Shown: piece after piece, positions 16,477 through 62,979 of the stretch
Position numbering within the stretch: the first letter of the stretch is position 1
How the letters are laid out: each line of letters starts with the position of its first letter
DNA from: Propionibacteriaceae bacterium
GTDB lineage: Bacteria > Actinomycetota > Actinomycetes > Propionibacteriales > Propionibacteriaceae
DNA length: 64,000 nt
Reading direction: 5' to 3'
Assembly: GCA_031267645.1 (NCBI GenBank)
Contig: JAIRYW010000043.1
Coordinates: 1-64,000, forward strand
Position numbers and translations under genes: made by a program
The notes under the pieces: generated by a model
Database searches by the model: none
What the model saw: only the letters and a program-made list of their open reading frames with translations
Told to the model about the DNA's origin: nothing

Positions 16477-16485
16477 GGGGGCGCC

Positions 16486-17358: not shown

Positions 17359-17360
17359 CC

Positions 17361-45959: not shown

Positions 45960-47198
45960 TCAGGGGCGACCGAGGTAGAGCGGTTCGCTGGCGGCTTCCT
46001 CGGCCGCCTGTAGGACGCGCAGGACGTTGCCGCCGGTCAGGGCCGCCAGATCCCGACTCGACCAGCCCCGGGCGGCCAAGGCTTCGAGCAGCCGAGGATA
46101 GCCGGTGACGTCCTCCATGCCTTCCGGCAGGCTGGGCGTGCCGTCGTAGTCGCCGCCCAGGCCGATGTGGTCGATCCCGGCCACCTCGCGGGCGTGCTCG
46201 ACGTGGGCCACCAGGTCGTCCAGCGTGACCGGCGGCTGCGGGCTCCGTTCGGCGAAGGCGGTCAGGGCGGCCATGAAGGAGGCCGTCGGGTCGACGGACT
46301 CCTGGCTCTGGCGGGCGATGGTCTGGGCCGCCGTCTCGCCCGGACGGGGAGCCGAGGCCCAGGGGAAGATGGAGACGCCGGAGGAGGCTTGGGCTTTGAC
46401 CCAGGCCATGGCCTCTTCGCTCCAAGCCCGGCGGGCGTCGGTCAAGAAGTCGGCCACGAAGGTGATCTGGACCACGCCGCCGTTGACGGCCAACGCCGCC
46501 AGGACGTCGTCGGGGACGTTGCGCGGGTGTCCTGCCACGGCGAAGGCGGAGGAGTGGGAGAAGATGACCGGCACGTCGGTCAGAGCCAGGACCGCCCGTT
46601 GGGTGTCGGCCGAGGTGTGGGACAGGTCGACCAACAGACCGATCCGGTTGAGCTCGGCCACGATGGCCCGGCCCTCCTGGTTGAGGCCGCCCAGAGCCGG
46701 GACGTCGGTGGCGGAGTCGGCCCAGGAGGTGTTGTGGCCGTGGGTCAAGGTCAGATAGCGCACGCCCAGCCGGGCCAGCGAGCGTAGGACGGCTAGCGAT
46801 TCGGCGATGGAGTGACCGCCCTCGACGCCAATCAAGCAGGCTAGCTTGTTCTCGGTCCAGGCCGCGCGGACGTCGGCCGCGGTGCGGGCGAAGGCCAGCT
46901 GATCGGGGTAGGCCGCCGTCAGGCGGTGGATGGCGTCGATCTGCTCCAAAGTCGCGACCACGGCCTCGGCCTCGGTCAGATCGGTCGGCACCCAGGCCGA
47001 CCAGAACTGGGCCCCCACGCCGCCTTGGCGCAGCCGCACCAGATCGGTCTGTTGGCCGGCCACGACCTGGTCCAGCCCCTCCACCGAGTAGCCGGATTGG
47101 GAGCGCAGGACGGCGGGCAGATCGTTGTGGCCGTCGATCACCGGCGTCTGGGCCAGGACCTGGCGGACCAGGGCGGACCAATCGGTGGTCTGAGTCAT
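45960..47198 (-). CDS. Membrane (renal) dipeptidase-type peptidase, family M19
   Basis: The 412-residue product starts at ATG 47198 with AGGAGGCGTCCTT-type context. M19 zinc motifs are present: IDGHNDLP (His24, Asp26), CLIGVEGGHSI with the bridging Glu, LTHGHNTSWADSA, VDLSHTS and VIFSHSSA with zinc histidines, and GIDHIGLGGDYDGT with the catalytic Asp. These enzymes hydrolyse dipeptides and characteristically accept a D-residue at the C-terminal position. The gene diverges from the serine hydrolase at 47549 and is likely part of the same D-peptide use system. Confidence 0.93.
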   Translation of the reverse strand: MTQTTDWSALVRQVLAQTPVIDGHNDLPAVLRSQSGYSVEGLDQVVAGQQTDLVRLRQGGVGAQFWSAWVPTDLTEAEAVVATLEQIDAIHRLTAAYPDQLAFARTAADVRAAWTENKLACLIGVEGGHSIAESLAVLRSLARLGVRYLTLTHGHNTSWADSATDVPALGGLNQEGRAIVAELNRIGLLVDLSHTSADTQRAVLALTDVPVIFSHSSAFAVAGHPRNVPDDVLAALAVNGGVVQITFVADFLTDARRAWSEEAMAWVKAQASSGVSIFPWASAPRPGETAAQTIARQSQESVDPTASFMAALTAFAERSPQPPVTLDDLVAHVEHAREVAGIDHIGLGGDYDGTPSLPEGMEDVTGYPRLLEALAARGWSSRDLAALTGGNVLRVLQAAEEAASEPLYLGRP

Positions 47199-47389
47199 AA
47201 GGACGCCTCCTCGGGGTGTGGTCGGCCGAGCCGGTCGCGGCCAGCCTACGCCGCTGGTCGCCGTGGTGGTTTCGGCCGGGGACGGGGCCAATGGTTTGGA
47301 CGCAGGTCCGGGGCTGGAAAGGCGAGCCCCGGACCCGCTTCCGAAAGCCCCTGCGGGCCTCCGGCGGTGAGCCGACTCTAGCACATGGA

Positions 47390-47407
47390 TAACGATTTGG
47401 TAACGAT
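47390..47407. promoter_or_regulatory. Direct repeat TAACGAT x2 (11-base period) in the dipeptidase/serine-hydrolase divergent gap
   Basis: TAACGAT-ttgg-TAACGAT lies in the 350-base divergent gap (47199-47548), in its only AT-rich stretch. An 11-base period places both half-sites on one face of the helix, as for an operator. The PucR-type protein encoded at the far end of the cluster is an obvious candidate ligand, but this is inference. The rest of the gap shows only GC-rich leader sequence. Confidence 0.45.
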
Positions 47408-47535
47408 GGTACGGATCGACGCCGGGCTGGAGGCGGCCGAAGCGGCGGCAGGACGAGTCGGGGCTATGTCGGACGGAACAAGGAAGAGCCGCTGGAGTTG
47501 TGCTGGACCACAAGGGTGGAGCGAAGTCGGACCGC

Positions 47536-47541
47536 TAGCCT
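47536..47541 (+). promoter_or_regulatory. Leaderless-type -10 box for the serine hydrolase gene
   Basis: TAGCCT ends seven bases before ATG 47549, leaving no space for a Shine-Dalgarno site. Confidence 0.55.
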
Positions 47542-47548
47542 CAGCACC

Positions 47549-48937
47549 ATGACGCAACAACAGACGCAGGCTTGGTTGGACGCCCAGTTCGCCGCCGCGG
47601 TCGAGCGGGCGGCAGTGCCGGGGGCCTCGATCGCCGTCCTCCAAAATGGGCAGGTGGCCACGGCGGCGGCGGGGACGCTGTCCCTGACCACCGGCGTGGA
47701 GGCCACCGTCGATTCGATCTTCCAGATCGGTTCCATCACCAAGCTGTGGACCGCCAGCCTGGTCATGCAGCTGGTCGACCAAGGACTGGTCGAGTTGGAC
47801 CAGCCGATCCAAACTTATCTACCCGAGTTCCAGCTGGCCGACGCCGCGGCGGCGGCCAGTGTCACGGTCCGCCATCTGCTCAGCCACCGAGCCGGTTTCG
47901 AGGGCGACATCTTCACCGACACCGGCCGGGGCGACGACGCCATCGAGCTCTACGTCGCCTCCCTGTCCGGCCTGTCCCAGATCTTCCCGCCCGGCGCCAT
48001 GTTCTCCTACAACAACGCCGGCTACGTCGTCCTGGGACGGCTGGTGGAGAAGCTGCGCCTCCAGCCCTACAACGAGGTCCTGAGCCAACACCTGGCCCAG
48101 CCGTTGGGGCTGGCCAGCGTCTCCCCCTCGCCCTACGAGGCCATCCTGCGCCGGGCGGCGGTCGGCCATGTGACCGGCCCGGACGGTCAGGTGGTGTCGG
48201 CGCCGGTCTGGGCCCTGGCCACCTCCAACGCTCCGGCCGGCTCGATGCTGGCCATGACGGCGGCCGACCTGGTCGGCTTCGCCGGCCTGGCCCTGAACTC
48301 GGGCCGCGCCCCGGACGGCGCCACCGTGCTCGGAGCCGGGGCGCTCCAAGCCATGCTGACTCGGCAGGTCGACCTGCCCCGCTTGACCGGTTTGGGCCAG
48401 GCCTGGGGCCTGGGTTACGAGATCGCCGCCGACCAGCCGACCCTGGTGGTCGGCCACGACGGCAACACCATCGGCCAGGCCGCCTTCCTGCGGATCGTGC
48501 CCGAGGCCGGTCTGGCCATCGCCCTGCTGACCAACGGCGGCGACCCGTACCAGCTCTTCAGCCAGACCGTCTCCGTCCTGCTGCGCGACCTGGTCGGCTT
48601 CCAAACCGAGCCCTGGCCGACGCCGGCCGAGCGCCCGGCCGACGGGGCCGACTGCGACGTCGCCCCCTGTCTGGGCCGCTACTCCAGCTCGATCCTCGAC
48701 TTCGTGGTCCGCCAGGACGACGAGGGCCGGATCTGGGTCGACCAGGAGCCCAAGGGGCTGTTGCTGGAGATGGGCGAACGGCCCGAGCGCCAGGAGGTGA
48801 CGGTCTTCGGGCCGGACCAACTGATCCAGCTGGAGCCCAGCGGCGGGCTGCACCCGATCTTCGCCTTCTCGGGCGACGACGGCGCCGGCCGGCGCCGCTA
48901 CGTCAACTTCGGCCGTGTCATCGAACGGGCCGACTGA
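47549..48937 (+). CDS. Class C beta-lactamase-family serine hydrolase (D-aminopeptidase/DD-peptidase type)
   Basis: A 462-residue protein without an obvious signal peptide. Active-site motifs are Ser62-Ile-Thr-Lys65 (SITK), Tyr154-Asn-Asn156 (YNN) and HDG in place of KTG (VVGHDGNT). This fold includes beta-lactamases, DD-carboxypeptidases, D-aminopeptidases and esterases. A C-terminal lipocalin-like beta domain (~360-462) follows the catalytic domain. It is clearly paralogous to the C-terminal domain of the fusion at 54704 (shared HLLSH...FTDTGRGDDA). First gene of the long cluster, followed after 203 bases by the solute-binding lipoprotein. Confidence 0.9.
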   Translation: MTQQQTQAWLDAQFAAAVERAAVPGASIAVLQNGQVATAAAGTLSLTTGVEATVDSIFQIGSITKLWTASLVMQLVDQGLVELDQPIQTYLPEFQLADAAAAASVTVRHLLSHRAGFEGDIFTDTGRGDDAIELYVASLSGLSQIFPPGAMFSYNNAGYVVLGRLVEKLRLQPYNEVLSQHLAQPLGLASVSPSPYEAILRRAAVGHVTGPDGQVVSAPVWALATSNAPAGSMLAMTAADLVGFAGLALNSGRAPDGATVLGAGALQAMLTRQVDLPRLTGLGQAWGLGYEIAADQPTLVVGHDGNTIGQAAFLRIVPEAGLAIALLTNGGDPYQLFSQTVSVLLRDLVGFQTEPWPTPAERPADGADCDVAPCLGRYSSSILDFVVRQDDEGRIWVDQEPKGLLLEMGERPERQEVTVFGPDQLIQLEPSGGLHPIFAFSGDDGAGRRRYVNFGRVIERAD

Positions 48938-49140
48938 CCGCCCGCTCCGCCAGACGTCGACCCGAACCACTCCACCGACTGACCGCCAACCGTGCGAGCC
49001 GCCGCCGAATCACTCCGTCCACCGGCCGCCGACCATACGAACCACCGCCACCGACCACACCGCTGAACCGAACCATTCCGTCCACCGTCACGATCCGACC
49101 ATCCTCAGCCCGTACCGCCCGGAGACCCGAAGGAAGACCC
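48938..49140. other. Gap before the solute-binding protein gene
   Basis: About 200 bases of CACCG-rich imperfect repeats, including CACTCCGTCCACCG and CATTCCGTCCACCG about 60 bases apart. It ends in GAAGGAAG before GTG 49141. No terminator or gene is evident, so the serine hydrolase and transporter genes may be co-transcribed. Confidence 0.35.
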
Positions 49141-50718
49141 GTGAGATCCAAGACATTGCCCGCCGTCCTGCTGGCTGCCCTGCTCGGCGCCACCCTGTTG
49201 ACCGGCTGCTCCGACTCGTCCGACGACCCGACCGCCGGCGCCGTCTTCAGAATGGCCACGGCCGCCGACCCGGGCGGCCTCGACCCCCACGCCTCGGCCT
49301 CCTCCACCGTCTTCCAGATCGCCGCTTTGGCCTACGACTCCTTGGTGACGATCAACGAGGCTGGCCAGATCGAGCCTCAGCTGGCCCAGAGTTGGCAGGT
49401 CGAGGGCGACACGGCGACCCTGACCTTGAAAACTGGGGTGACCTGCTCGGACGGCTCCAGCTTCACAGCCAGCACGGCGGCGGCCAACATCGCTTACATC
49501 GAGGACCCGGCCAACCTGAGCCCCTTGCTGGGCACCTTCCTGCCGGCCGGCCTGACCGCCACGGCCGACGACGCCAGCGGCGTCCTCACCATCGAGCTGG
49601 CCCAACCGGCCCCCTTCCTGCTACAGGGCCTGTCCCAGGTGGCGATGGTCTGCCAGGCCGGCTTGGACGACCGTTCCAAGCTGGCCGCCGGCGCCATCGG
49701 CTCCGGTCCCTTCGTCCTGCGCGAGGTGGTGCCGAACGACCACTACACCTTCGAGCTGAACCGTGACTACGCCTGGGGTCCGAACGGTCTGACCGGCCAG
49801 GCCGCCGGCCTGCCCGCCACCGTCGAGATGCGCGTCATCACCAACGAGACGACGACCGCCAACCTGCTGCTGTCCGGAGAACTCAACACGGGTTTGGTGA
49901 TGGGGCCGGACGGCGCCCGCCTGACCGCCGCCGGCGTCGACTCCAAGACCATGCTGGCCCTGTGGGGCGAGCAGTGGTACAACCAGAACGGCGATCATCC
50001 GACGGCCGACCGCTTGGTCCGCCAAGCCCTGACCCAGGCCGTCGACTGGTCCGAAGCCCAGCGGGTCCTGACCTCGGGCACCGGTTCGGACCCGACCCGG
50101 TTGGCCATGATCCCACCGTCGGCTTGCGTCTACGACTCCCTGGGCGGGCTGCTGTCCCCGGCCGACCCGGCCGCCGCCGCCGCTGCCTTGGACGAGGCCG
50201 GCTGGGTGGCCGGGGCCGACGGCCAACGGGCCAAGGACGGCCGACCGTTGGTCCTAACCTTCCTGCACGACGCCGCCCTGGGAGCCGGCGGGGCGGCCGC
50301 CGCCGAATTGGTGACCCAGCAGTGGACCGCCTTGGGCGTTGGCGTCGAGGCCACCCAGCTGGACAACAGCCAGATGATCGAAGCGCTCTTCGGCACGGGG
50401 GCCTGGGACGTGGCCTGGGAACCGGTCAACGTCAACAACCCGGACCAGGTGACCGGCTTCTTCTCCGGCCCCGGCGCGCCCGACGGCACCAACTTCGCCG
50501 GCGTCCATAACCAGGCCTACGAGGAGGCCGTGGCCCGGGCCATGACCATGAACGGCACCGAGTCCTGCCCGGTCTGGGCCGAGGGCGAGGTCGCTTTGAT
50601 GGACGGCTTCGACCTGGTGCCCTTCGCCGCCTCGGTCGCCCACATGTTCGTCCAAGGGGCCGACTTCACCTACCTGGGCCGGATCGAGCCGGCCACCATC
50701 CGCATGTCGGCCAGCTGA
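49141..50718 (+). CDS. Family 5 solute-binding lipoprotein of a peptide ABC importer
   Basis: This encodes 525 residues from GTG 49141 (GAAGGAAG upstream). A lipoprotein signal ends in LLTGC (Cys at ~23). The SBP_bac_5 domain follows: FRMATAADPGGLDPHASAS, EPQLAQSWQVEGDTATLTLKTGVTCSDG, GSGPFVLREVVPNDHYTFELNRDY and VRQALTQAVDWSEAQRV. It should deliver oligopeptides, plausibly with D-residues given the neighbours, to the permeases encoded next. Confidence 0.92.
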   Translation: MRSKTLPAVLLAALLGATLLTGCSDSSDDPTAGAVFRMATAADPGGLDPHASASSTVFQIAALAYDSLVTINEAGQIEPQLAQSWQVEGDTATLTLKTGVTCSDGSSFTASTAAANIAYIEDPANLSPLLGTFLPAGLTATADDASGVLTIELAQPAPFLLQGLSQVAMVCQAGLDDRSKLAAGAIGSGPFVLREVVPNDHYTFELNRDYAWGPNGLTGQAAGLPATVEMRVITNETTTANLLLSGELNTGLVMGPDGARLTAAGVDSKTMLALWGEQWYNQNGDHPTADRLVRQALTQAVDWSEAQRVLTSGTGSDPTRLAMIPPSACVYDSLGGLLSPADPAAAAAALDEAGWVAGADGQRAKDGRPLVLTFLHDAALGAGGAAAAELVTQQWTALGVGVEATQLDNSQMIEALFGTGAWDVAWEPVNVNNPDQVTGFFSGPGAPDGTNFAGVHNQAYEEAVARAMTMNGTESCPVWAEGEVALMDGFDLVPFAASVAHMFVQGADFTYLGRIEPATIRMSAS

Positions 50719-50776
50719 CCGGGTCGGACTGGAAGCCTGGTCGTGGGACCAGCTTGAAAGAGAGACACACACCCGA

Positions 50777-51829
50777 GTGAACGCAGCCGCCGAGGCGATC
50801 AGTCCGCCGCCGACCGTCGACGGGGCCGGTCCGTCCGCCGCCACCGGCCCCGCCCCGTGGCGGTGGGCGACGGCGCTGTGGCGGCGGCGTTGGGTCCGCT
50901 TCGCCATCTTGCGCGGCGGTCGCCTGCTGGTCTCGCTCTGGATCCTGGTCACGGCCGCCTTCTTGATCATCCACCTGGTGCCGGGCGATCCGGTGCGGGC
51001 CGCCATGGGCATCACCGCGCCGGCCGAGGTGGTGGAGGCCCGGCGGGAGGCGCTCGGCCTCAACCTGCCCCTGGGCGAGCAATACGTCCGCTTCCTGGGC
51101 GGGCTGCTGCGGGGCGACCTGGGGGACTCGATCGGCTCCCGGCTGCCGGTCGGGCAGGTCATCGCCCAACGTCTGCCGGCCACCGCCAGCCTGGCCGGAC
51201 TGGCCTTCCTAGTGGCCGTGCTGGTGGCCTTCCCGGTCGGTCTGGCGGTGGCGGTGGCGACCCGGGGCGGCCGGCGCCGGCGCACCGAGCTGGGCTTCGC
51301 GACCGGCTCGGTCCTGCTCGGGGCCATCCCCGACTTCCTGCTCGGCGTCGCCTTCGTCTCGGTCTTCGCGGTCGGCCTCCATCTGCTGCCGGTGGCCGGA
51401 CGGGGCGGGCCGGCCACCTACGTCCTGCCGGTGCTGTCGCTCTGCCTGGGCCCGGCCGCCATCCTGGCCCGAATCGTCCGAGTCGAGACGCTGGGTGTGC
51501 TGCAGACCGACTACGTGCGCACCGCCCGGGCCAAACGGTTGCCGCCGCACCGGGTCTACCTGCGCCACGCCCTGCCCAACGCCGTCACCGCCTCCCTGAC
51601 CGTGGGCGGCCTGATGCTGTCCAGCATGGTGGCCGGCACGGTCCTGGTGGAGAGCGTCTTCGCCTGGCCCGGGCTGGGTTCGACCATCGTGTCGGCCATC
51701 CTGACCAAGGACTATCCCTTGGCCCAGGGAGTGGTTCTGGTCTACGGCGTCGGCGTGCTGCTGATCAACACCGTGGTCGACCTGGCCCTGGCCGGGCTCG
51801 ACCCCCGTTCGACGGTGGGGGCGAGTTGA
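50777..51829 (+). CDS. Peptide ABC importer permease (DppB family)
   Basis: A 350-residue protein from GTG 50777, 58 bases after the binding-protein stop. First membrane helix at ~45-65 (SLWILVTAAFLIIHLVPGDPV). A periplasmic loop with LPLGEQYVRFLGGLLRGDLG leads to five further helices. The EAA loop is DYVRTARAKRLPPHRVYLRHALPNA. Its stop overlaps the ATG of the permease-ATPase fusion (TGATG), so the two membrane partners are made together. Confidence 0.93.
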   Translation: MNAAAEAISPPPTVDGAGPSAATGPAPWRWATALWRRRWVRFAILRGGRLLVSLWILVTAAFLIIHLVPGDPVRAAMGITAPAEVVEARREALGLNLPLGEQYVRFLGGLLRGDLGDSIGSRLPVGQVIAQRLPATASLAGLAFLVAVLVAFPVGLAVAVATRGGRRRRTELGFATGSVLLGAIPDFLLGVAFVSVFAVGLHLLPVAGRGGPATYVLPVLSLCLGPAAILARIVRVETLGVLQTDYVRTARAKRLPPHRVYLRHALPNAVTASLTVGGLMLSSMVAGTVLVESVFAWPGLGSTIVSAILTKDYPLAQGVVLVYGVGVLLINTVVDLALAGLDPRSTVGAS

Positions 51830-53862
51830 TGGAGGCCGATCAGACCGTTCCCGGCCGCCCGCTGGAGGCCGACCCGGCCCTGGCCGACTCGCTGTCTGAG
51901 CCGCCCCAGGTCGACTGGGAGGCGCCGACGGACCTGGCGCCGACGCGGCGTCGACTGTTGGCCGCCCTGCGCACCCCGCTGGGGGCCAGCGCCGCCATCC
52001 TGCTCGGGTTGGTCCTGCTGACCGCCTTGCTGGCCCCGCTGCTGTGGTCCGGCCGAGCCGAGGCGATCGACACCTCCAATCTCTTGGCCGGGCCCTCGGC
52101 CCAACATTGGATCGGCACCGACGCCCTCGGCCGCGACCTCTTCTGCCGGGTCCTGGTGGCCACCCGGCTGTCCGTCCTGCTGGCCCTGGCCGCCACCGGC
52201 CTGTCCGTCGGGGTCGGATTGGCGCTGGGAGCCGCCCCGGTCTGGTTGGGACCGGTGGCCGGACAGGCCGTGGTCTGGTTCATCGGCGCGGCGGTGGCCT
52301 TCCCCGGCCTGCTGCTGGCCCTCTTCTTCGCCGTCATCTTCGGGGCTTCCCAGACCGGCGCGGTCTGCGCCATCGGCCTAGCCGGGGCCCCCAGCTTCGC
52401 CCGCCTCTGCCACACCTTGATCGCCGGCGTGATGGGCCGCGACTTCGTGGCCGCCGCCCGGGTCGGCGGCATCAGCCGGGGGCGGATCCTGTTCCGCCAC
52501 GTCTTGCCCAATGTGGCCGAGCCCCTGGTCGTCCAAGCCACCATGGGGGCCGGCGGCGTCCTGCTCAGCTTCGCCGGGCTGTCTTTCCTGGGCCTGGGCG
52601 TCAAAGCCCCGGCCTACGACTGGGGCCGCTTGATGAACGAGGGCTTGTCCGGCATCTTCATCCATCCCTTGGCCGCCCTCGGCCCCGGCCTGGCCGTCGT
52701 GCTGGCCGGGCTGGCCTTCAACCTGACCGGCGAGGCGGCCGCCCGTAGCCTGGGCCTGGCCGCCCAAGGCGGCTACGTCGCCGGGTCGCTTCCAGCTCGG
52801 TCGGCCCGATCGGGCCGGACGGCCGCCCGCCCGCCGGCCCCACCTCCCGCCCCAGCCCAGCGGGAGATCCTGACGGTCGAGGGCCTCCGGGTCTTCTTCC
52901 CCGGTCCGGACGGCCCGCTCCAGCCAGTCCGAGGGGTCAGTTTCAGCGTCGCCGCCGGCCAGGCCCTCGGCTTGGTCGGGGAGTCCGGCTCGGGCAAGTC
53001 CTTGACCGCCTTGGCCGTGGCCCAGTTGATCGAGGCCCCGGGCCAGGTCGAGGCCGGACGGCTGTCCTTCTGCGGGGCCGATCTGTTGGCGGACGGACCG
53101 CGCCTTTGGCGTCATCTCCTGGGCACCTCCATGGCCATGGTCTTCCAAGACCCCATGACCTCGCTCAACCCGACCATGCGGGTCGGCGACCAGCTGGCCG
53201 AGGTCTCCCGTCAGCATTACGGCCTGGGCCGGCGGCCGGCCTGGCGACGGGCGGTCGAACGGCTGGCCGCGGTCCGGATCGACCAGGCCGAGCGGCGGGC
53301 CCGGCAGTATCCGCACGAGTTCTCCGGCGGCATGCGCCAGCGCGCCATGATCGGCATGGGCGTGATGGGCTCGCCCCGTCTGATCATAGCCGACGAGCCC
53401 ACCACCGCCCTCGACGTCACCGTCCAAGAGCAGGTCTTGGACCTGCTGCGCTCGATCAGACGCCAAGACCAGGTGGCGATCTGGCTGATCAGCCACGACG
53501 TCGCGGTGGTGTCCGAGGTCTGCGACCGGGTCATGGTGATGTACGCCGGGCGGATCGTCGAAGAATTGCCCGTGGCCCGGCTGCGCCACGACGCCCGCCA
53601 CCCCTACACCCGTCTGCTGGTGGCGGCCGTGCCGGACATGACGACCGACCTGGCCGCGCCCTTGCCCACCATCCCGGGCCGGCCGGTCGAGGTCGGGCAG
53701 TTCCCGCCCGGCTGCGCCTTCGCGCCCCGCTGCCCGGCGGCCGTCCCACTCTGCCGCCGGCGCGACCCGGAGCTGGAGCCGGACGGGGCCGGTGGCCGGG
53801 TGGCCTGTTGGCGGGCCGGCCAGCCCTGGCCCGCCGTCGACTGGACGGAGGCCGCGCCGTGA
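51829..53862 (+). CDS. Peptide ABC importer permease-ATPase fusion (DppC-DppD)
   Basis: The 677-residue single chain combines two importer subunits. Residues ~1-310 are a DppC-like permease (IGTDALGRDLFCRVLVATR, six helices, EAA loop GRDFVAAARVGGISRGRIL). A Pro/Ala-rich linker (~315-340) follows, then a DppD-like ATPase with GESGSGKSLTALAV, FSGGMRQRAMIGMGV, LIIADEPTTALD and the C-terminal Cys-containing oligopeptide tail (GCAFAPRCPAA...CRR). Permease and ATPase are normally separate proteins. No frame change is seen between the parts, so the fusion appears real. It overlaps both neighbours. Confidence 0.92.
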   Translation: MEADQTVPGRPLEADPALADSLSEPPQVDWEAPTDLAPTRRRLLAALRTPLGASAAILLGLVLLTALLAPLLWSGRAEAIDTSNLLAGPSAQHWIGTDALGRDLFCRVLVATRLSVLLALAATGLSVGVGLALGAAPVWLGPVAGQAVVWFIGAAVAFPGLLLALFFAVIFGASQTGAVCAIGLAGAPSFARLCHTLIAGVMGRDFVAAARVGGISRGRILFRHVLPNVAEPLVVQATMGAGGVLLSFAGLSFLGLGVKAPAYDWGRLMNEGLSGIFIHPLAALGPGLAVVLAGLAFNLTGEAAARSLGLAAQGGYVAGSLPARSARSGRTAARPPAPPPAPAQREILTVEGLRVFFPGPDGPLQPVRGVSFSVAAGQALGLVGESGSGKSLTALAVAQLIEAPGQVEAGRLSFCGADLLADGPRLWRHLLGTSMAMVFQDPMTSLNPTMRVGDQLAEVSRQHYGLGRRPAWRRAVERLAAVRIDQAERRARQYPHEFSGGMRQRAMIGMGVMGSPRLIIADEPTTALDVTVQEQVLDLLRSIRRQDQVAIWLISHDVAVVSEVCDRVMVMYAGRIVEELPVARLRHDARHPYTRLLVAAVPDMTTDLAAPLPTIPGRPVEVGQFPPGCAFAPRCPAAVPLCRRRDPELEPDGAGGRVACWRAGQPWPAVDWTEAAP

Positions 53863-54707: not shown

Positions 54708-57700
54708 CCCGCTCTCCCGTCCTCGCCGACCTCTACTCGATCGCCTCGCCGGAACAGCCGACGCTGAGCCCCGCGGGGGACCACCTGGTCTACGTCCTGC
54801 GCCAAGCCGACCAAGCCAGCGACGCCGATCGGCGCTCCCTGTGGTCGGTCCGGCCCGGTCAGCCGCCGCGGCCGTGGAGCGTCGGACCGGCCGACGCCGC
54901 CCCGGCCTTCTCGCCGGACGGCCGCCAGCTAGCCTTCCTCCGGGCCGGCCAACTCTGGTTGGCCCCGACCGACGGCGGCGACCCGGAACGACTGACCGAC
55001 CTGCCCTTGGGGGCCGGCGCCCCGGTCTGGAGCCCGGACGGAGGCCGCCTCGCCTTCACCGCCCTAGTCCCCGGCCCGGCCGACCCGGCCGCCGTCGACC
55101 CGGCCCCCCTGGTGGTCGACGGCTTTAGCTACCAGGCGGACGGCCATGGCTTCCTGGCCGGCGCCGTGGCCCAAGTCCATCTGTTCGAGTTGGAGGGCCG
55201 CCGGCTGCGCCAACTGACCGACGGCGACAACCACGCCAGCGCCCCGGCCTGGTCGAGCGACGGGGCCAGCCTGGCCTTCGCCGCCCGTCCGGCCGGCCAG
55301 CCCGACACCAGTCTGGTGGCGGCCTTGTATCTGATCGACCCCCACGACCCCAAGGCCCAGCCCCGCTTGGTCGGGCTGGCCGAAGGGCTGGCCGGGCTGG
55401 TCGCGACCGGACCGGATCCGGACCACTGGCTGGTGGTGGGCTGGGCCGAGGCGCCGTCGGGCCAGGCCGGGCTGTTGCTGGTCGACTCCACTTCGGGGCA
55501 GGTCCGCGATCTGGCCCGGGCGCTGGACCGCAACGTCATGCCGGGCGCTCCGGCCTACCCCGGGGCCACCCCGCTGGTCGGCCCCGACGGCGACTCGGTC
55601 TTGTTCTGCGTGCGCGACCACGGTTGCACCCATCTCCACGCCGTCGACCTGGCCTCGGGGGAGACCCGACTGGTGCTGGGCGGCGACGGCGTGGTGGTGT
55701 CGGGGCTGGCCCGGGCCGGCCGTCGGATGGTGGCGGTGCTGGCGACGCCGACCTCGTACGGCGAGGTCGTCGAGGTCGATCTGGCCGACGGTTCGACCAA
55801 GCCGGTGACAGAGCACGGGGCCGCTTTGGCCGACCTGGAGCCCCTGGTCCGGCAGCGGCGGCGATTCCAGATCAGCGACGGCGGCACGGTCGAGGGTTGG
55901 CTGTTACGGGCCGACGACGCCCCCCGGCCCGGCCCGGTCCTGCTCGACGTCCACGGCGGTCCGCACAACGCTTGGAACGGGGCCAGCGATCAGACCCATC
56001 TGTACCACCAGGAGTTGGCGGCCCGGGGCTGGACCGTGCTGATTTTGAACCCGCGCGGCTCGGACGGCTACGGCGACGCTTTCTACCAAGCCGCGGTGGG
56101 GGCTTGGGGGGTCGGCGACGAAGCCGATCTGTTGCAGCCGTTGGACCAACTGGTGGCCGAGGGCTTGGCCGACCCGGCCCGACTGGCCGTCTCCGGCTAC
56201 TCCTACGGTGGCTACATGGCCTGTTATCTGACATCGCGCCACGATCGTTTCGCGGCCGCCGTGGCCGGCGGGGTGGTGTCCGACCTGGCCTCGCTGGCGG
56301 GGGTCTGCGACGAGGGCCATACCCTGGCTGTGACCGAGCTGGAGTTGCTGCCCTGGCAGGACAAGGACCGACTGGCCCAGATGTCGCCTTACGCCCAGGT
56401 CGACCAAGTCTCCACACCGACCCTGATCTTGCAAGGGGGCAACGATATACGTTGCCCGCTGGGGCAGGCTCAGCAGTGGTACCACGGTTTGCACGCCCGG
56501 GGCGTGCCCACCGAATTGGTGATCTACCCGGAGGGCTCCCACATCTTCCCCATCGCTGGGCGGCCCTCCCATCGGATCGACTTCGGCCGCCGCTTGATCG
56601 ACTGGGTGGAGCGTTTCGCCGGCGACCCGGCCGGCCCGCGTCCGGCCCGGCTGGACCAGACCCGCTGGGCGGCCCGGTTGGCCCGCTTGGCCGACAAGCA
56701 CGGCGTGCCCGGGGCTCAGTTCGGCCTGCTGCGGCTGGGTTCGCCCGACGGCGCTGGGCCGGACGACCAGGTGGTGGCCGTCCACGGCCTGCTCAACCTC
56801 GACACCGGCACGCCGGTCAGGGCTGATTCGTTGTTCCAGATCGGTTCGATCTCGAAGGTCTGGACCGCCACCTTGGCCATGCAGTTGATCGATCAGGGCC
56901 GGCTCAGCCTGGACGCCAAGGTGGTCGACATTTTGCCCGAGTTGCGCCTGCGCGACGAACGGGCCCAATCTGAGATGACGATCTGGCATCTGCTGACCCA
57001 CACCAACGGCATCGACGGCGACGTCTTCACCGACACCGGTCGGGGCGACGACGCCGTCGCCAAATACGTCGGCGCCCTGGCCGAGGCGGCCCAGAACCAT
57101 CCTCTGGGGGCGACCTGGTCGTACTCCAACTCGGGTTTCGCCCTGCTCGGAGCCGTCATCGAACGGATCTGCGGGCAGACCTGGGACGAGGTCGTGAGCC
57201 AGAACCTGTGCCAGCCCCTCGGGCTGACCCACACCGCCACCTTGCCAGAGGATTTGTTGTTGCGTTCGATCGCGGTCGGGCACGTCGGCGTGGCGCCCGA
57301 TCTGACGGTCGCCCCGATCGCCTTGTTGCCGCGCAGCATCGGTCCGGCCGGGTTGATATCGGCCACCGTGGCCGACCTGCTCCAATTCGCTCGGGCCCAT
57401 CTGCTGGGCGGCCTGGCGCCCGATGGGACCAGACTGTTGTCCGAACAGTCGGCCCAGGCCATGACCGAGTTCCAAGTCGAGCTGCCAGACAAATATATGT
57501 TGGGCGATTCCTGGGGTCTGGGCTGGATCCGGTACGACTGGAACGGCTACCGCGCCATCGGCCACGACGGCAACACCGTCGGCCAGGCCGCTTTCCTCAG
57601 ACTGTTGCCTCGACACGGCCTGGCCATCGCCTTGCTGACCAATGGCGGCTCCGCCCACGATCTCTACGAGGAGCTGTTCCGGGAGGTGGCCCAGGAGCTG

Positions 57701-58042
57701 GCCGAGGTCGAGATGCAATGGCCCTTGCAGCTGCCCCAGCCGCCGGTCGAAGTCGACATCGAACCGTACCTCGGCCTCTACGAGCGGGAGTCGGTTCGGA
57801 TGGAGGTCCTGGAAAGTCCGGACGGACCGTGTCTGCGCACCACCGTCTTGGGGCTGCTGGGCGACTTGACCGACACCCCGGTGGAGGAGAGCGTTTTGCT
57901 GCCGGTGGCCCCGGGCCTGTTCGCCACCAAGCCGCTGGGCATGGACAGCTGGGTGCCGGTGACCTTCTACGAATTGGCCAGCGGCGAGCCTTACCTCCAC
58001 CACGGCGGCCGGGCCACGCCTAAGACGGGCGGTCCGGCATGA
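54704..58042 (+). CDS. Fusion of an S9 prolyl-oligopeptidase-type peptidase and a class C beta-lactamase-fold hydrolase
   Basis: The 1112-residue single chain starts at ATG 54704 (AAGGAG; ATGA overlap with the ATPase). Residues ~1-380 are a WD-like/TolB beta-propeller (PAFSPDGRQLAF, PVWSPDGGRLAF, PAWSSDGASLAF). Residues ~385-645 are the S9 alpha/beta-hydrolase domain with Ser500 in GYSYGG, Asp581 and His613. From ~650 a second hydrolase begins: Ser715-Ile-Ser-Lys718, Tyr807-Ser-Asn809 and HDG near residue 955, with a lipocalin-like C-terminal domain. No signal peptide is seen, so both active sites probably work on imported peptides in the cytoplasm. Confidence 0.92.
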   Translation: MTRSPVLADLYSIASPEQPTLSPAGDHLVYVLRQADQASDADRRSLWSVRPGQPPRPWSVGPADAAPAFSPDGRQLAFLRAGQLWLAPTDGGDPERLTDLPLGAGAPVWSPDGGRLAFTALVPGPADPAAVDPAPLVVDGFSYQADGHGFLAGAVAQVHLFELEGRRLRQLTDGDNHASAPAWSSDGASLAFAARPAGQPDTSLVAALYLIDPHDPKAQPRLVGLAEGLAGLVATGPDPDHWLVVGWAEAPSGQAGLLLVDSTSGQVRDLARALDRNVMPGAPAYPGATPLVGPDGDSVLFCVRDHGCTHLHAVDLASGETRLVLGGDGVVVSGLARAGRRMVAVLATPTSYGEVVEVDLADGSTKPVTEHGAALADLEPLVRQRRRFQISDGGTVEGWLLRADDAPRPGPVLLDVHGGPHNAWNGASDQTHLYHQELAARGWTVLILNPRGSDGYGDAFYQAAVGAWGVGDEADLLQPLDQLVAEGLADPARLAVSGYSYGGYMACYLTSRHDRFAAAVAGGVVSDLASLAGVCDEGHTLAVTELELLPWQDKDRLAQMSPYAQVDQVSTPTLILQGGNDIRCPLGQAQQWYHGLHARGVPTELVIYPEGSHIFPIAGRPSHRIDFGRRLIDWVERFAGDPAGPRPARLDQTRWAARLARLADKHGVPGAQFGLLRLGSPDGAGPDDQVVAVHGLLNLDTGTPVRADSLFQIGSISKVWTATLAMQLIDQGRLSLDAKVVDILPELRLRDERAQSEMTIWHLLTHTNGIDGDVFTDTGRGDDAVAKYVGALAEAAQNHPLGATWSYSNSGFALLGAVIERICGQTWDEVVSQNLCQPLGLTHTATLPEDLLLRSIAVGHVGVAPDLTVAPIALLPRSIGPAGLISATVADLLQFARAHLLGGLAPDGTRLLSEQSAQAMTEFQVELPDKYMLGDSWGLGWIRYDWNGYRAIGHDGNTVGQAAFLRLLPRHGLAIALLTNGGSAHDLYEELFREVAQELAEVEMQWPLQLPQPPVEVDIEPYLGLYERESVRMEVLESPDGPCLRTTVLGLLGDLTDTPVEESVLLPVAPGLFATKPLGMDSWVPVTFYELASGEPYLHHGGRATPKTGGPA

Positions 58043-59253
58043 TCGATGGCGTGGCCCTGCTGCGGGACCTGGTCCGTTTGGTCGAGTGCGAGTCGCCCTC
58101 GGGCGACTTGGACGCCCTGGCCGCTGGCGCCGACCTGGTGGCCGAGCTGGGCCAGCGCCGGTTGGGCCGTCCGCCCGAGTCGGTCACGGTCGAGGGCCGG
58201 CGGCACCTGCGTTGGCGGCTGGGCTCGGGCGGGGGCGACGTGCTGGTCTTGACCCACTACGACACGGTCTGGCCACTCGGTTCTCTGGCCGACCACCCCT
58301 GCCGGATCAGCCCCTCGGAACGGGGCGAGGCCTTGACCGGGCCGGGTTGTTTCGATATGAAGGCCGGTCTGGCGATGGCTTGGCAGGCCTTGGCCGCTCT
58401 GGCGCCGGCTCCGGGCCGGGGGGTGACCTTGTTGGCCACGGCCGACGAGGAGATCGGCTCGCCCAGCTCGCGCCAGCTGATCGAGGCCGAGGCGGCTCGG
58501 GCCCGGGCCGTGCTGGTGTTGGAGTCGCCCGCCGCCGGCGGCGCCCTCAAGACCGCCCGCAAAGGGGTCTCGCTCTATCAGGTCGAGATCTCAGGCCGGG
58601 CCGCCCACGCCGGCTTGGAGCCGGAGCGCGGCGTCAACGCCACCGTCGAATTGGCCCACCTGGTCTTGGCTCTGGCCGCTTTGGCGGACCCGGAGCGGGG
58701 CACCAGCGTGACGCCGACCTGGGCCAGCTCCGGCAGTTCCACCAACACGGTGCCGGCCCGGGCCAGCCTGGCGGTCGACGTCCGGGCTTGGACCATGGCC
58801 GAGCAGGACCGGGTGGACCAGGCCTTGACCCGGCTGGCCCCAGTCTTGCCCGGGGCCCGGCTCGAGGTCCGAGGCGGCCACAACCGGCCGCCCTTCGAGG
58901 CCGACCGTTCGGCCGAGCTGTTCGAGCTGGCCCGCCGTCTGGGCCGGGCCTTCGGTCTGGAGCTGGCGTCGGCCGCCGTCGGCGGGGCCAGCGACGGCAA
59001 TTTCACGGCCGGGTTGGGCGTGCCCACCTTGGACGGGCTGGGGGCCGAGGGCGGCGGGGCCCACGCCGACCACGAACACGTCTGGGTGGACTCGTTGGAG
59101 CCGCGCACGGCCTTGCTGAAGGCCCTGCTCGACCATCTGTTGGCCGACGCCGGACCGCCCGGTCCAGCTCCGGCCGCCGGCGGGGTCAGCCCCGGGGCCG
59201 GGCCCGGGGCTGACCGGCGACCGGGCCCTAGTCCCGTCTGGAGCCCGGCGTGA
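58039..59253 (+). CDS. M20-family metallopeptidase, probable N-succinyl-L-amino acid desuccinylase
   Basis: This encodes 404 residues and overlaps the upstream stop by four bases. Zinc and catalytic residues follow the carboxypeptidase G2 plan: His73-x-Asp75 (LTHYDTVWP), Asp106 (GCFDMKAG), Glu137-Glu138 (TADEEIGS), Glu162 (LESP) and a C-terminal HADHEHVW His. The dimerisation domain is at ~180-290. CPG2-like enzymes cleave N-acyl amino acids. Next to a GNAT acyltransferase and an N-succinylamino-acid racemase, the desuccinylase of the D-to-L conversion route is the best reading. The last ~25 residues are disordered Pro/Gly/Ala. Confidence 0.87.
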   Translation: MIDGVALLRDLVRLVECESPSGDLDALAAGADLVAELGQRRLGRPPESVTVEGRRHLRWRLGSGGGDVLVLTHYDTVWPLGSLADHPCRISPSERGEALTGPGCFDMKAGLAMAWQALAALAPAPGRGVTLLATADEEIGSPSSRQLIEAEAARARAVLVLESPAAGGALKTARKGVSLYQVEISGRAAHAGLEPERGVNATVELAHLVLALAALADPERGTSVTPTWASSGSSTNTVPARASLAVDVRAWTMAEQDRVDQALTRLAPVLPGARLEVRGGHNRPPFEADRSAELFELARRLGRAFGLELASAAVGGASDGNFTAGLGVPTLDGLGAEGGGAHADHEHVWVDSLEPRTALLKALLDHLLADAGPPGPAPAAGGVSPGAGPGADRRPGPSPVWSPA

Positions 59254-60161
59254 CCAGGGCCGATCCCGGGCCGGGGGTGGAGCCGGTCGGCGGCCGGCGA
59301 CCGGACTTGGTCGGTTCGGCCGACCGGGCGGCCCGGGCCGCCGCCCAGGCCGCCGGCGTCGATCTGCGTCTGCTCGAGCGGGTCGACCAGATGGTGGCCG
59401 CCGCCGATCTGTTGGGCGGCCTGTGGGGTTTGGCTGGCTCCGAGCCGCTGGCCCCGGAGCTGTTACGGGCTTTCGCCATGACCGGAAACTACGTCGGCGG
59501 GGCTTTCGCGGGCGAGGATCTGGTCGGCGTGGCGGTGGCCTTCCACTCGATGCTGGACTACGCCGAGCTCCATTCCCACATCGCCGGCGTCCAAGCCGGC
59601 CTGATCTCCCGCTCGATCGGCTTCGCCCTCAAACAGCACCAGCGGGCCTGGGCCCTGGAACGCGGCATCGGCGTCATCGAGTGGACCTTCGACCCTTTGG
59701 TGGCGCGCAATGCCGCTTTTAACATCGGCAAGCTCGGGGCCGACGTCGAGCGCTATCTGCCCGACTTCTACGGCCGGATGGACGACGCCATCAACGTCGG
59801 GCACCCCAGCGACCGTCTGCTGGTGCGCTGGCGCCTCGACGCTCCCGCCGTGGTGGCCGCCGCCGTCGGCCGTCGCCGGCCGGTCGACTGGGCCCAGGCC
59901 AGCGCTTTCGTGGCGGTGCCGCCCGACATCGAGTCTCTGCGGCGGTCGGATCCGGCCCGGGCCCGGCAGTGGCGCCAGCGCGTCCTGGCCGGTCTGGCCC
60001 CGGCCTTGGCCGAGGGGGCCCGGGTGGTCGGCTTCGACCCCCAGCGCGGTTACGCCCTGAGCGCTGTTCCGGAGCCGTCGACCGAGGCCGGCCGGCGTTC
60101 GCGCCGGGGTCCGGCGGTGGCTCCGATCCCGTCCCCAAATGACAAGGATGTATTGATATGA
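59250..60161 (+). CDS. GNAT-superfamily acyltransferase, probable D-amino acid N-succinyltransferase
   Basis: A 303-residue protein from GTG 59250 (GTGA overlap). It belongs to the predicted-acetyltransferase group COG3375: LWGLAGSEPLAPELLRAFAMTGNYVGGAF, LVGVAVAF, HSHIAGVQAGLISRSIGFALKQHQRAWAL (acyl-CoA binding), EWTFDPLVARNAAFNIGKLGADVERYLPDFYG. This group repeatedly neighbours MenC/NSAR genes, and in Geobacillus kaustophilus the equivalent enzyme succinylates D-amino acids using succinyl-CoA. The C-terminal ~60 residues look disordered. Confidence 0.85.
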   Translation: MTRADPGPGVEPVGGRRPDLVGSADRAARAAAQAAGVDLRLLERVDQMVAAADLLGGLWGLAGSEPLAPELLRAFAMTGNYVGGAFAGEDLVGVAVAFHSMLDYAELHSHIAGVQAGLISRSIGFALKQHQRAWALERGIGVIEWTFDPLVARNAAFNIGKLGADVERYLPDFYGRMDDAINVGHPSDRLLVRWRLDAPAVVAAAVGRRRPVDWAQASAFVAVPPDIESLRRSDPARARQWRQRVLAGLAPALAEGARVVGFDPQRGYALSAVPEPSTEAGRRSRRGPAVAPIPSPNDKDVLI

Positions 60162-61264
60162 AGTTGACTGGTTTCGAGCTACGACGGGTCGCCATGCCCT
60201 TGGTGGCCCCCTTCCGCACCTCCTTCGGCACCCAGGTCGAGCGCGACATCTTGTTGCTGCGGGCCCTGACCGACCAGGCCGAGGGCTGGGGCGAGTGCGT
60301 CACCTTGCCCGACCCGGTCTATTCCTCCGAGTACGTCGACGGCGCGGTCGACGTGTTGCGCCGCCATCTCATCCCGGCCCTGGCCCGGGCCGCGGTCGAC
60401 GGCGCCGTGGCGGTGGGGAGCGCGCTGGAACCGTATCGGGGCCACCGGATGGCCAAGGCCGCCCTCGAGATGGCCGTGTTGGACGCCGAACTGCGTTCGA
60501 TCGGCCGTTCCTGGGCCCGGGAGCTGGGGGCGGTCCATGATCGCGTGCCCTGCGGCGTCTCGGTCGGCATCCAAGACTCCATCGACCAATTGTTGGCCGT
60601 GGTGGGCGGTTACGTCGAGGCCGGCTACGTCCGGATCAAGCTCAAGATCGAGCCCGGTTGGGACATCGAGCCGGTTCGGGCGGTGCGACGTCAGTTCGGC
60701 GACGACTTGCCGTTGCAGGTCGACGCCAACGCCGCCTACAGTCTGTCCGACGCCCGCCACCTGGCCCAGCTGGACCAGTTCGGATTGTGGCTGATCGAGC
60801 AGCCGCTGGCGGAGGACGATCTGCTGGGCCATGCCGATCTGGCCCGGATCGTGCGCACGCCGATCTGTTTGGACGAGTCGATCGTCTCGGCCCAGTCGGC
60901 CGCCGCCGCCATCCGCTTGGGCGCCACCGCCGTCATCAACATCAAGCCAGGCCGGGTCGGCGGCTACTTGGAGGCGCGGCGCATCCACGACCTGGCTCGG
61001 GCCAACGGCGTGCCGGTCTGGTGCGGCGGCATGATCGAGTCCGGTTTGGGCCGGGCCGCCAACGTGGCCTTGGCCGCCCTGCCCGGCTTCACCCTGCCGG
61101 GCGACGTGTCCGCCTCCGACCGTTTCTACCGTCAGGACCTGACCGAGCCCTTCGTCATGGTGGACGGGCATCTGGCGGTGCCCGACCGGCCCGGTCTGGG
61201 CGTGACGCCCGACCCGGTCCTGCTGGCCCGGCTGACCCGCTGGCAGGAGCTGATCGAGTTCTGA
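60158..61264 (+). CDS. N-succinylamino acid racemase / o-succinylbenzoate synthase (enolase superfamily)
   Basis: The 368-residue product has the same length as the Amycolatopsis NSAR/OSBS. Catalytic residues fall at identical numbers: Lys161-x-Lys163, Asp189 (QVDANAAY), Glu214 (LIEQPL), Asp239 (CLDES) and Lys263 (NIKPGRVGG). The ATG overlaps the GNAT stop, with AAGGA upstream. No other menaquinone genes are in the window, and the M20 and GNAT partners point to racemisation of N-succinyl amino acids rather than menaquinone synthesis. Dual function cannot be excluded. Confidence 0.93.
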   Translation: MKLTGFELRRVAMPLVAPFRTSFGTQVERDILLLRALTDQAEGWGECVTLPDPVYSSEYVDGAVDVLRRHLIPALARAAVDGAVAVGSALEPYRGHRMAKAALEMAVLDAELRSIGRSWARELGAVHDRVPCGVSVGIQDSIDQLLAVVGGYVEAGYVRIKLKIEPGWDIEPVRAVRRQFGDDLPLQVDANAAYSLSDARHLAQLDQFGLWLIEQPLAEDDLLGHADLARIVRTPICLDESIVSAQSAAAAIRLGATAVINIKPGRVGGYLEARRIHDLARANGVPVWCGGMIESGLGRAANVALAALPGFTLPGDVSASDRFYRQDLTEPFVMVDGHLAVPDRPGLGVTPDPVLLARLTRWQELIEF

Positions 61265-61323
61265 GCGGTCGGACCGCCGGAGATGGACCGTCCGACTCGG
61301 CCCCGGCGGCCGTCCGCGGACAG

Positions 61324-61329
61324 TAGGCT
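61324..61329 (+). promoter_or_regulatory. Leaderless-type -10 box for the PucR-type regulator
   Basis: TAGGCT ends six bases before GTG 61336, as at 14890 and 28565. This suggests the regulator gene has its own promoter and a leaderless mRNA. Confidence 0.55.
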
Positions 61330-61335
61330 CGACCT

Positions 61336-62979
61336 GTGACCAGCCGACCGCGAGCCAGTTTGGGCCGGATCTTGGACGATCTGGGGGCGACCCTGCTGGA
61401 GGTCGTGGGCGGGGAACTGGACCCGGACCGGGAGATCGGCGGGGTCGTCATCCACGATCCCTTGGACGAGCCGGCCTACCCCGACGGCGCCATCGTCTTG
61501 GGCGTCGGCTTGGCCGGCGGCGAGGACATCGGCCGGTTGGTCGAAGAGCTGGGCCGCCGGGGCGCGGTCGGTTTGATCGTGCGCCATCCGACGGCCGGCG
61601 GGCCGGCTCTGGCCCAGGCCGCCAAGGCCGCCGGGCTGGTCGTCCTGGGTTTGGCCCGGGGCGCGACTTGGACCCAACTGGCTGCTCTGCTGGGGTCACT
61701 GTTGGCTGAGGAGGACGTCGGCGCGGTCGACGACGAGTCGCTCGGCGGCCTGCCCTCGGGCGACCTCTTCGCCGTCGCCAACGCGGTCGCCGCCTTGCTC
61801 GACGCTCCGGTCACGATCGAGGACCGCTCCTCGCGGGTGTTGGCCTTCTCGGCCCGCCAAGACGAGGCCGACGCCTCCCGGGCCGAGACCATCATCGGCC
61901 GTCAGGTGCCGGAACGTTACGCCCGCGTCCTGACCGAGCTGGGCGTCTTCAGAGACCTCTATCGCCACGACCGGCCGGTCGTGGTCGATCCCGAGCCGGT
62001 CGGCTACGACGACATGACGGTGCCGCGGGTGGCTTTCGCGGTGCGCGCCGGCGACGAGGTGCTGGGCTCGATCTGGGCCGCCACCGGTCAGCCGCTGACG
62101 CCGGCCAAGGAAGCCTCTTTGCGTGACGCCGCCAAGCTGGTGGCCCTGCATCTGTTGCGGCTGCGGGCCGGAGCCGACGTCTCCCGGCGGCTGCGGGCCG
62201 ACCTGGTCAGCACCGCTTTGGAGGGTGGTCGGGGGGCTCGTCAGGCCCTCAGCCGGCTGGGTCTGGCCGACCAGCCCCTGGTGGTGGTGGCGGCCGCTCT
62301 GCGCGGGGTCGACTCCAGCGAGGCCTCGGCCTACGCCGAGCAGTTGCGGGCCGGCGAGCGGCAGCGCTTCACGGACGCCTTCGCCGTCCATCTGTCGGCT
62401 ATGAACCCGGGCACGGCGGTGGCTGAGATCGGCGGCCTGGCCTACGCCCTCTTCCCCGTCGTCGGGCCCCCGGCCACAGCCGAGGAACGGGCCGCGCGGG
62501 CCGCCGGCCTCTTCTTGGAGCGGATCGGTTCCCGGGTCCAGGCCGTCGTGGCGGTGGGCCGGGTGGCTGCGGAGGTGAGCGAGCTGGCTCAGTCGCGGAC
62601 GACGGCGGAGCGAGTCCTACGGGTGCTGCGCTGCCGCCCGGAGACCGGTCCGACCGCCCGTATGGCGGACGTCCAGACCGCCTCTTTGTTGCTCGAGTTG
62701 GGCGATCTGATGGCGGCCCGGGGCGACCGGCCGATCGGGCCGGTGGCCAGTCTGATCGCGTACGACGCCCGCTCCGAGACCGACCTGGTGGGAACTTTGA
62801 GGGCCTGGCTGGACAGTTTCGGCGACGTCGCCCAGGCCTCAGCCCGCCTCTTCGTCCATCCCAACACTCTGCGTTACCGGTTGCGTCGGATCGGTCAGAT
62901 CTGCGGTCTCGACTTGAACGACCCCGAGGCTCGGTTCGCCGCCATGCTGCAGCTGCGCATCGACCTCCAGCCCCGTTGA
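61336..62979 (+). CDS. PucR/CdaR-family transcriptional regulator
   Basis: A 547-residue protein from GTG 61336. The N-terminal ~130 residues match the PucR ligand domain (DPDREIGGVVIHDPLDEPAYPDGAIVLGVGLAGGEDIGRLV...LGLARGATWTQLAALL). A GAF-like centre (VANAVAALLDAPVTIEDRSSRVLAFS) and the C-terminal HTH (LRAWLDSFGDVAQASARLFVHPNTLRYRLRRI, ~485-520) follow. Such regulators sense amino acids or purines and activate catabolic genes. Its position 71 bases after the NSAR gene suggests it controls the D-peptide cluster. The 3' end overlaps the convergent DUF349 gene. Confidence 0.92.
   Translation: MTSRPRASLGRILDDLGATLLEVVGGELDPDREIGGVVIHDPLDEPAYPDGAIVLGVGLAGGEDIGRLVEELGRRGAVGLIVRHPTAGGPALAQAAKAAGLVVLGLARGATWTQLAALLGSLLAEEDVGAVDDESLGGLPSGDLFAVANAVAALLDAPVTIEDRSSRVLAFSARQDEADASRAETIIGRQVPERYARVLTELGVFRDLYRHDRPVVVDPEPVGYDDMTVPRVAFAVRAGDEVLGSIWAATGQPLTPAKEASLRDAAKLVALHLLRLRAGADVSRRLRADLVSTALEGGRGARQALSRLGLADQPLVVVAAALRGVDSSEASAYAEQLRAGERQRFTDAFAVHLSAMNPGTAVAEIGGLAYALFPVVGPPATAEERAARAAGLFLERIGSRVQAVVAVGRVAAEVSELAQSRTTAERVLRVLRCRPETGPTARMADVQTASLLLELGDLMAARGDRPIGPVASLIAYDARSETDLVGTLRAWLDSFGDVAQASARLFVHPNTLRYRLRRIGQICGLDLNDPEARFAAMLQLRIDLQPR

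Follow-up and report, generated by a model that had tools for sequence, protein, structure and literature searches.

What does a racemase of N-succinylated amino acids do beside a peptide importer and a set of peptidases? This question is raised by a row of genes in a stretch of 64,000 nucleotides (the window: positions 1 to 64,000 of contig JAIRYW010000043.1, assembly GCA_031267645.1) from a Propionibacteriaceae bacterium, whose genome comprises 2.85 Mb in 76 contigs. The N-succinylamino acid racemase/o-succinylbenzoate synthase (NSAR/OSBS) is a model for enzyme promiscuity, and in the open-access literature we found no settled role for it in its actinomycetes. Here we report that the NSAR of the window belongs to a ten-gene row that is a real unit, and we argue, with a little more than even confidence, that this row is a catabolic operon for peptides containing D-residues. 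Such an operon would supply this much-studied enzyme with D-amino acids and with partner enzymes, and so with a concrete role.

A conserved row of ten genes

The genes of the row and a divergent neighbour are the following:

47549-48937, +, S12 class C beta-lactamase-fold hydrolase with a C-terminal lipocalin-like domain (PF00144, 199 bits)
49141-50718, +, solute-binding lipoprotein (SBP) of family 5, peptide/nickel type, lipobox LLTGC
50777-51829, +, importer permease (PermB) of DppB/OppB type (Pfam/NCBIfam)
51829-53862, +, importer permease fused to an ATPase, DppC-DppD type (Pfam/NCBIfam)
53859-54707, +, importer ATPase of DppF type (GTGA overlap with the preceding gene)
54704-58042, +, fusion of an S9 prolyl-oligopeptidase-type and an S12 peptidase (PF00326, 133.8 bits; PF00144, 199.3 bits; ATGA overlap)
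58039-59253, +, M20 metallohydrolase, carboxypeptidase G2-like, proposed L-specific desuccinylase (ATGA overlap)
59250-60161, +, GNAT acyltransferase, proposed D-amino acid N-succinyltransferase (GTGA overlap)
60158-61264, +, NSAR of the NSAR/OSBS subfamily (TIGR01928, 293.2 bits; ATGA overlap)
61336-62979, +, PucR-type regulator, proposed local regulator (HTH_30)
45960-47198, -, M19 dipeptidase-family enzyme, divergent and outside the conserved unit (PF01244, 359.5 bits)

All the genes named in the initial annotation are present at their positions, as recognised with Pfam and NCBIfam and, for GNAT, from its family members and its structure model, and the PucR gene lies within the range that it covered, unnamed in its text. 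The first ten genes follow one another in the above order on the forward strand, and five successive junctions, from that between the permease-ATPase fusion and the ATPase to that between GNAT and NSAR, are 4-bp stop-start overlaps. Because these overlaps come together with a ten-gene order shared by 19 of 80 related loci, the row is more than a chance neighbourhood.

These loci came from a scan of one genome per species, in which an alignment of 11 S9/S12 fusion proteins served as the query and the best 80 of at least 525 relatives were kept, with stretches of up to 10 kb per side (shorter at contig ends; in some Amycolatopsis loci the stretch ends inside M20), and a gene was counted in a locus when its best match covered more than 40% of the query. 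PermB and the SBP were each present in 66 of the 80 loci, S12 in 57, PucR and GNAT in 54 each, NSAR in 53 and M20 in 46; the ATPase count (72) takes in unrelated ATP-binding cassette (ABC) ATPases. Identity to PermB was about 62% or more, except at loci L118 and L137 (32-33%). All ten genes were found in 24 loci, the identical order and strand with each gene once in 19, and the combination of importer, fusion, GNAT and NSAR in 46, with Microbacterium, Nocardioides, Kribbella, Amycolatopsis, Promicromonospora, Actinomadura and Actinocatenispora among the genera. On plasmids (4 of 857 records with an NSAR match examined), one Streptomyces record carries the exact ten-gene row, another Streptomyces plasmid the same genes with two blocks swapped and with insertions, and an Arthrobacter plasmid a rearranged set, M19 included.

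The proposal of the initial annotation that the importer, the peptidases and the trio of NSAR, GNAT and M20 are one unit is therefore borne out by the co-directional, overlapping row and by the joint travel of its parts across actinomycete families and on Streptomyces plasmids. The M19 dipeptidase, which had been counted among the genes of the route, has to be taken out of it, being found in 2 of the 80 fusion loci only, at 33-35% identity. M19-like genes also lie close by in L041, L165 and L202 (26-53% identity).

In 27 of the 80 fusion loci the stretch contains no NSAR. Among 24 genomes of such loci, 20 carry an NSAR elsewhere, against 73 of 396 genomes of a phylum sample at the same threshold, a comparison of sets that differ in lineage make-up and in which contig breaks may hide linkage in some cases. 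In the 25 loci with an incomplete trio two groups of extra genes recurred, one in 12 loci and the other in six, and none of the nine extra proteins scanned from these loci was a D-amino acid oxidase or racemase that could act as a replacement. Twelve variants (L120-L123, L136, L138, L140, L143, L145, L146, L150 and L152) have the importer, the S12 hydrolase and the S9/S12 fusion with no NSAR in the stretch, and each contains one or two members of a gene group in which the two proteins scanned were PF13354 beta-lactamase-like; six of these variants also carry a gene of a group with one scanned member of MFS type.

Linkage, age and assembly

Within the order, the association between fusion and racemase was examined in 147 genomes, taking as close NSAR any sequence with 61% identity or more (a second NSAR clade, separated by a gap, stands at 42-49%). 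A close NSAR was present in 43 genomes and the fusion in 32, and every one of these 32 had a close NSAR as opposed to 11 of the 115 genomes without the fusion. The two genes lie 1.8-2.5 kb apart in 31 genomes and 8.5 kb apart in the remaining one. The corresponding probability (p = 2.6e-23) overstates independence, because the 32 fusion genomes span four genera and 30 of them come from only two (22 and 8).

Several observations weigh against a strict link between trio and importer or against the proposed D-peptide role. The initial annotation had suggested a neighbourhood search for trio and importer, and the joint occurrence of importer, fusion, GNAT and NSAR in 46 of the 80 fusion loci answers to that expectation, but the importer permease is near none of 40 NSARs sampled across the phylum (40 of 74 places outside the window, mostly the more similar ones, with some contigs short) and in none of 16 stretches around second-clade NSARs of the order (taken from 38 places). 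PermB was present in 15 of 24 close-NSAR stretches, taken from 45 places outside the window, so that close and second-clade NSARs differ (Fisher 3.6e-5, subject to the same caution about kinship). Locus L066, from the window's own family, has an NSAR with GNAT only; at L197, whose NSAR is the closest in the phylum sample (77%), both GNAT and importer are missing from the neighbourhood. Finally, the solved relative that stands nearest to the S12 enzyme is IS11, an esterase.

The distribution of these genes may also be informative about the age of the row. Near the 40 phylum-wide NSARs, GNAT was found in 36 cases, M20 in five, an S12-type gene in four and PucR in three. The fusion is present in at least four of the 396 phylum-sample genomes, the source genome included, with two of the matches covering the S12 part only, and this figure is a lower bound because only two candidates per genome were scored. 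A fusion-NSAR pair occurs in another class as well (locus L165 of genome G182, in addition to the 40), together with GNAT, PucR, S12 and an M19-like gene and with no PermB in the stretch. In a FastTree phylogeny of 120 NSARs, drawn from the order, from named loci and from the phylum sample, the stretch contains the cluster importer in 58 cases, a different importer in five and no importer in 57, and 61 of the 63 importer-bearing sequences fall inside one large clade of 83 (the exceptions are L078 and L080). The link between trio and importer is confined to one part of the NSAR tree. NSAR and GNAT would form the older core, to which import and cutting were added in one branch, followed by losses and swaps. 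A branch with 100/100 support divides the permease tree: it separates the main cluster importers from the NSAR-adjacent importers of L076, L080 and L118, which group with other importers. Peptide importers hence came beside NSAR more than once, and this repeated arrival favours a functional link.

Proposed function of the row

As a catabolic operon for D-residue-containing peptides, the row would work in the following way. The ABC importer would take in intact peptides, which the S12 hydrolase and the S9/S12 fusion would cleave in the cytosol from the D- and L-sides; GNAT would N-succinylate the freed D-amino acids using succinyl-CoA, NSAR would racemise the N-succinyl product, and M20 would strip succinate from the L-form only. 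Because of this L-specificity the conversion would be pulled toward L-amino acids. The PucR regulator would control the row. Among the SBP and the enzymes an export signal, accompanied by the lipobox, is visible only in the SBP, as judged from the hydropathy of the N-terminal 45 residues rather than with a dedicated predictor, and for this reason the hydrolases are probably cytosolic and uptake probably precedes cutting.

In the case of the racemase, the match to TIGR01928 is well above its cut-off (293.2 against 200.65 bits), and the alignment with the crystal structure 1SJA is free of gaps over residues 1-361. K163 and K263, which we take to be the catalytic lysines, D189, E214 and D239, presumably the metal ligands, and R266 are kept in 96 of 96 aligned sequences; entry 7s8w has Q at the position of R266 in 1SJA. 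Racemisation of N-succinylamino acids is the predicted activity of the enzyme. The GNAT protein of the window has no match of its own in the Pfam scan, and 12 of 18 aligned members match Acetyltransf_1 at E<=1 (best 2.5e-6); its AlphaFold model (pLDDT 87) aligns with GNAT structures along some 160-180 columns at a Foldseek probability of 1.0. NSAR, GNAT and M20 are adjacent with overlapping frames in the window, and the assignments of D-amino acid N-succinylation to GNAT and of L-specific desuccinylation to M20 are to be read as predictions from sequence.

As for the peptidases, the SxxK, YxN and HxG motifs of the S12 hydrolase (S64/K67, Y156/N158 and H305/G307, in the numbering of the alignment query, which is two higher than that counted from the ATG at 47549) are kept in 69 of 69 aligned sequences, and both active sites of the fusion are invariant across its 11 aligned proteins. 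Motifs of this type occur in DD-peptidases too. The same three motifs are given as residues of the O. anthropi DAP in the abstract of PMC3347556. D-residue specificity of the S12 and S9/S12 hydrolases, which belong to a type of serine hydrolase that frequently acts on D-amino acids, is a putative property.

The initial annotation had named stem peptides of the cell wall, beside other D-peptides, as possible substrates. The stem-peptide idea is weakened by the Pfam matches (E<=0.001) of the ten proteins from M19 to NSAR, among which there is no S66, NlpC/P60 or M55 enzyme. Since these murein-specific enzymes are missing from the cluster, D-peptides from other sources fit better, and non-ribosomal or racemised peptides are indicated because the racemase favours hydrophobic residues. 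The diet is thus likely to consist of peptides with hydrophobic D-residues rather than of murein stems. If true, the row would represent a route for the removal of D-residue peptides, including peptide antibiotics, from soil, and the two-headed S9/S12 enzymes of the row might become tools for work on D-peptides.

Upstream of the S12 gene a palindrome, TTCGTC-N6-GACGAA, is found with at most two mismatches in 45 of 61 loci; the corresponding counts are 71 of 1189 for control windows and 6 of 1220 for shuffled sequences. The finding is a lead only, because the palindrome was discovered in the same, related sequences. It sits about 47-138 bp before the aligned S12 coding start, is not in the window's own promoter region, and is an operator-like candidate for a PucR site.

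Alternative explanations

Could the row instead serve detoxification, importing and destroying the D-residue-containing non-ribosomal peptide antibiotics of neighbours, with nutrient gain secondary? Peptidases with D-stereospecificity are known as resistance factors (PMC9231227, in excerpt), the row is carried on plasmids, and the variants in which the row is accompanied by an MFS-type gene and a PF13354 hydrolase would agree with such a role. However, an importer combined with hydrolases that lack a visible signal peptide would first draw the antibiotic into the cell, and resistance needs no full line of D-to-L conversion. We therefore consider this explanation unlikely.

To the same degree improbable is general scavenging, in which the importer and hydrolases would handle ordinary peptides or ester and N-acyl compounds and the trio would have another job, such as the salvage of N-acyl amino acids. 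The esterase activity of IS11 speaks for it, as does the S9 part of the fusion, which is nearest to S9 and acyl-peptide hydrolases, and NSAR and GNAT often occur without an importer. Against this reading stand the complete fusion-NSAR linkage in the order sample, the overlapping frames and the importers of other clades that adjoin NSAR at L076, L080 and L118.

The recycling of murein stem peptides, as in the ykf/dpp region of B. subtilis, has in its favour the peptide/nickel class of the importer, the DD-peptidases among the relatives of the S12 enzyme, a weak match of the SBP to murein-peptide-binding chains of MppA type (3o9p, E 2.8e-11) and the M19 dipeptidase adjoining the row in the window. 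It is very improbable nonetheless: the murein-specific families named above are missing from the Pfam matches, M19 is not conserved, and the racemase scores far under the cut-offs of the L-Ala-D/L-Glu epimerase models (66.9 against 500 bits and 51.3 against 343).

That the NSAR is a mere OSBS (menC) of menaquinone synthesis, a role evoked by the TIGR01928 name, the 'menC' label in public records and the promiscuity of the family for the OSBS reaction, is scarcely credible and was rejected because the genome carries its own menC (PRK02901, 395.1 bits, cut-off 288), flanked by menA and menD on a separate contig. The initial annotation had listed this role among the findings that would refute its proposal; the separate men operon speaks against it.

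In public records the racemases of L039, L040, L041 and L166 bear the name 'menC, o-succinylbenzoate synthase', which for racemases of the cluster type is probably the wrong role. At L166, on a plasmid of Deinococcus radiodurans, the gene for a relative of NSAR precedes a small gene with an ABC solute-binding protein annotation and, after that, a GNAT gene; this arrangement may apply the same idea to free amino acids.

Other features of the window

A second importer of oligopeptide type, with two permeases, a double ATPase and a family-5 SBP, is encoded at 15421-20863, with 33% identity between its permease and the one in the ten-gene row. Elsewhere there are a short DUF1016_N stretch (PF17761) at 30110-30529 on the reverse strand, possibly a piece of a larger or broken gene, and a protein of 2482 amino acids predicted by a simple gene finder at 31652-39097 on the forward strand.

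Comparison with known systems

The row resembles the dpp/ykfABCD region of B. subtilis in that a dipeptide importer stands beside cytosolic D-peptide enzymes, including in that organism the enolase-superfamily epimerase YkfB. The dpp operon is presumably headed by the gene for DppA. This D-aminopeptidase is mentioned in excerpts of PMC2651629, and ykfA-D adjoin dppB-E according to excerpts of PMC2954226; the region is also treated in excerpts of PMC3305447. The B. subtilis region is nevertheless murein-specific, with the LD-carboxypeptidase YkfA and the NlpC/P60 enzyme YkfC, and its inversion acts on the dipeptide L-Ala-D-Glu and involves no N-succinyl step, whereas the window row has the S12 and S9/S12 enzymes and the NSAR/GNAT/M20 trio.

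In P. abyssi, Pab87 is a peptidase with S12 and lipocalin domains that acts on D-containing peptides; a role toward environmental D-peptides has been proposed for it, and its locus is close to the dipeptide ABC transporter PAB0091-95 and a D-aminoacylase (PMC2651629, in excerpt). The initial annotation knew of no such combined unit, yet this locus and B. subtilis ykfA-D/dppB-E (PMC2954226) are close analogues in print, and the idea of joining an importer, D-active peptidases and an inverting enzyme was already known from them. The excerpted description of the Pab87 locus (PMC2651629) contains neither the NSAR/GNAT/M20 trio nor an S9/S12 fusion, and the CubicO motifs YAE(A)F/L and ERY taken from it are absent from the window S12 by string search. 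Like Pab87 (CubicO), the window enzyme combines an S12 domain with a C-terminal lipocalin-type domain.

Geobacillus kaustophilus reportedly has a pathway of NSAR, succinyltransferase and desuccinylase, the same trio of enzyme classes; unlike the window row, it is not known to include an importer or peptidases. The NSAR of this species has been used with its L-succinylase (PMC7431475, in excerpt). The D-stereospecific resistance peptidases of non-ribosomal peptide gene clusters likewise act on D-residue non-ribosomal peptides, but they sit with biosynthesis genes, and the excerpted text of PMC9231227 describes neither importer nor inversion. We found no description of the NSAR/GNAT/M20 set together with the S9/S12 fusion in the open-access literature, a scope outside which most subscription papers fall.

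The Amycolatopsis NSAR/OSBS (PDB 1SJA/4A6G), to which the window NSAR aligns without gaps, brings the comparison back to the opening question. The NSAR of the cluster locus of Amycolatopsis sp. A133 (L128) is identical to 1SJA at 304 of 360 positions, and close kin of the crystal enzyme therefore sit in the cluster. It is accordingly a serious possibility, to which we give slightly less than even weight, that actinomycetes possess a self-contained and transferable D-peptide pathway, comprising import, two-sided cutting and one-way inversion, and that this pathway is the native setting of the Amycolatopsis NSAR/OSBS.

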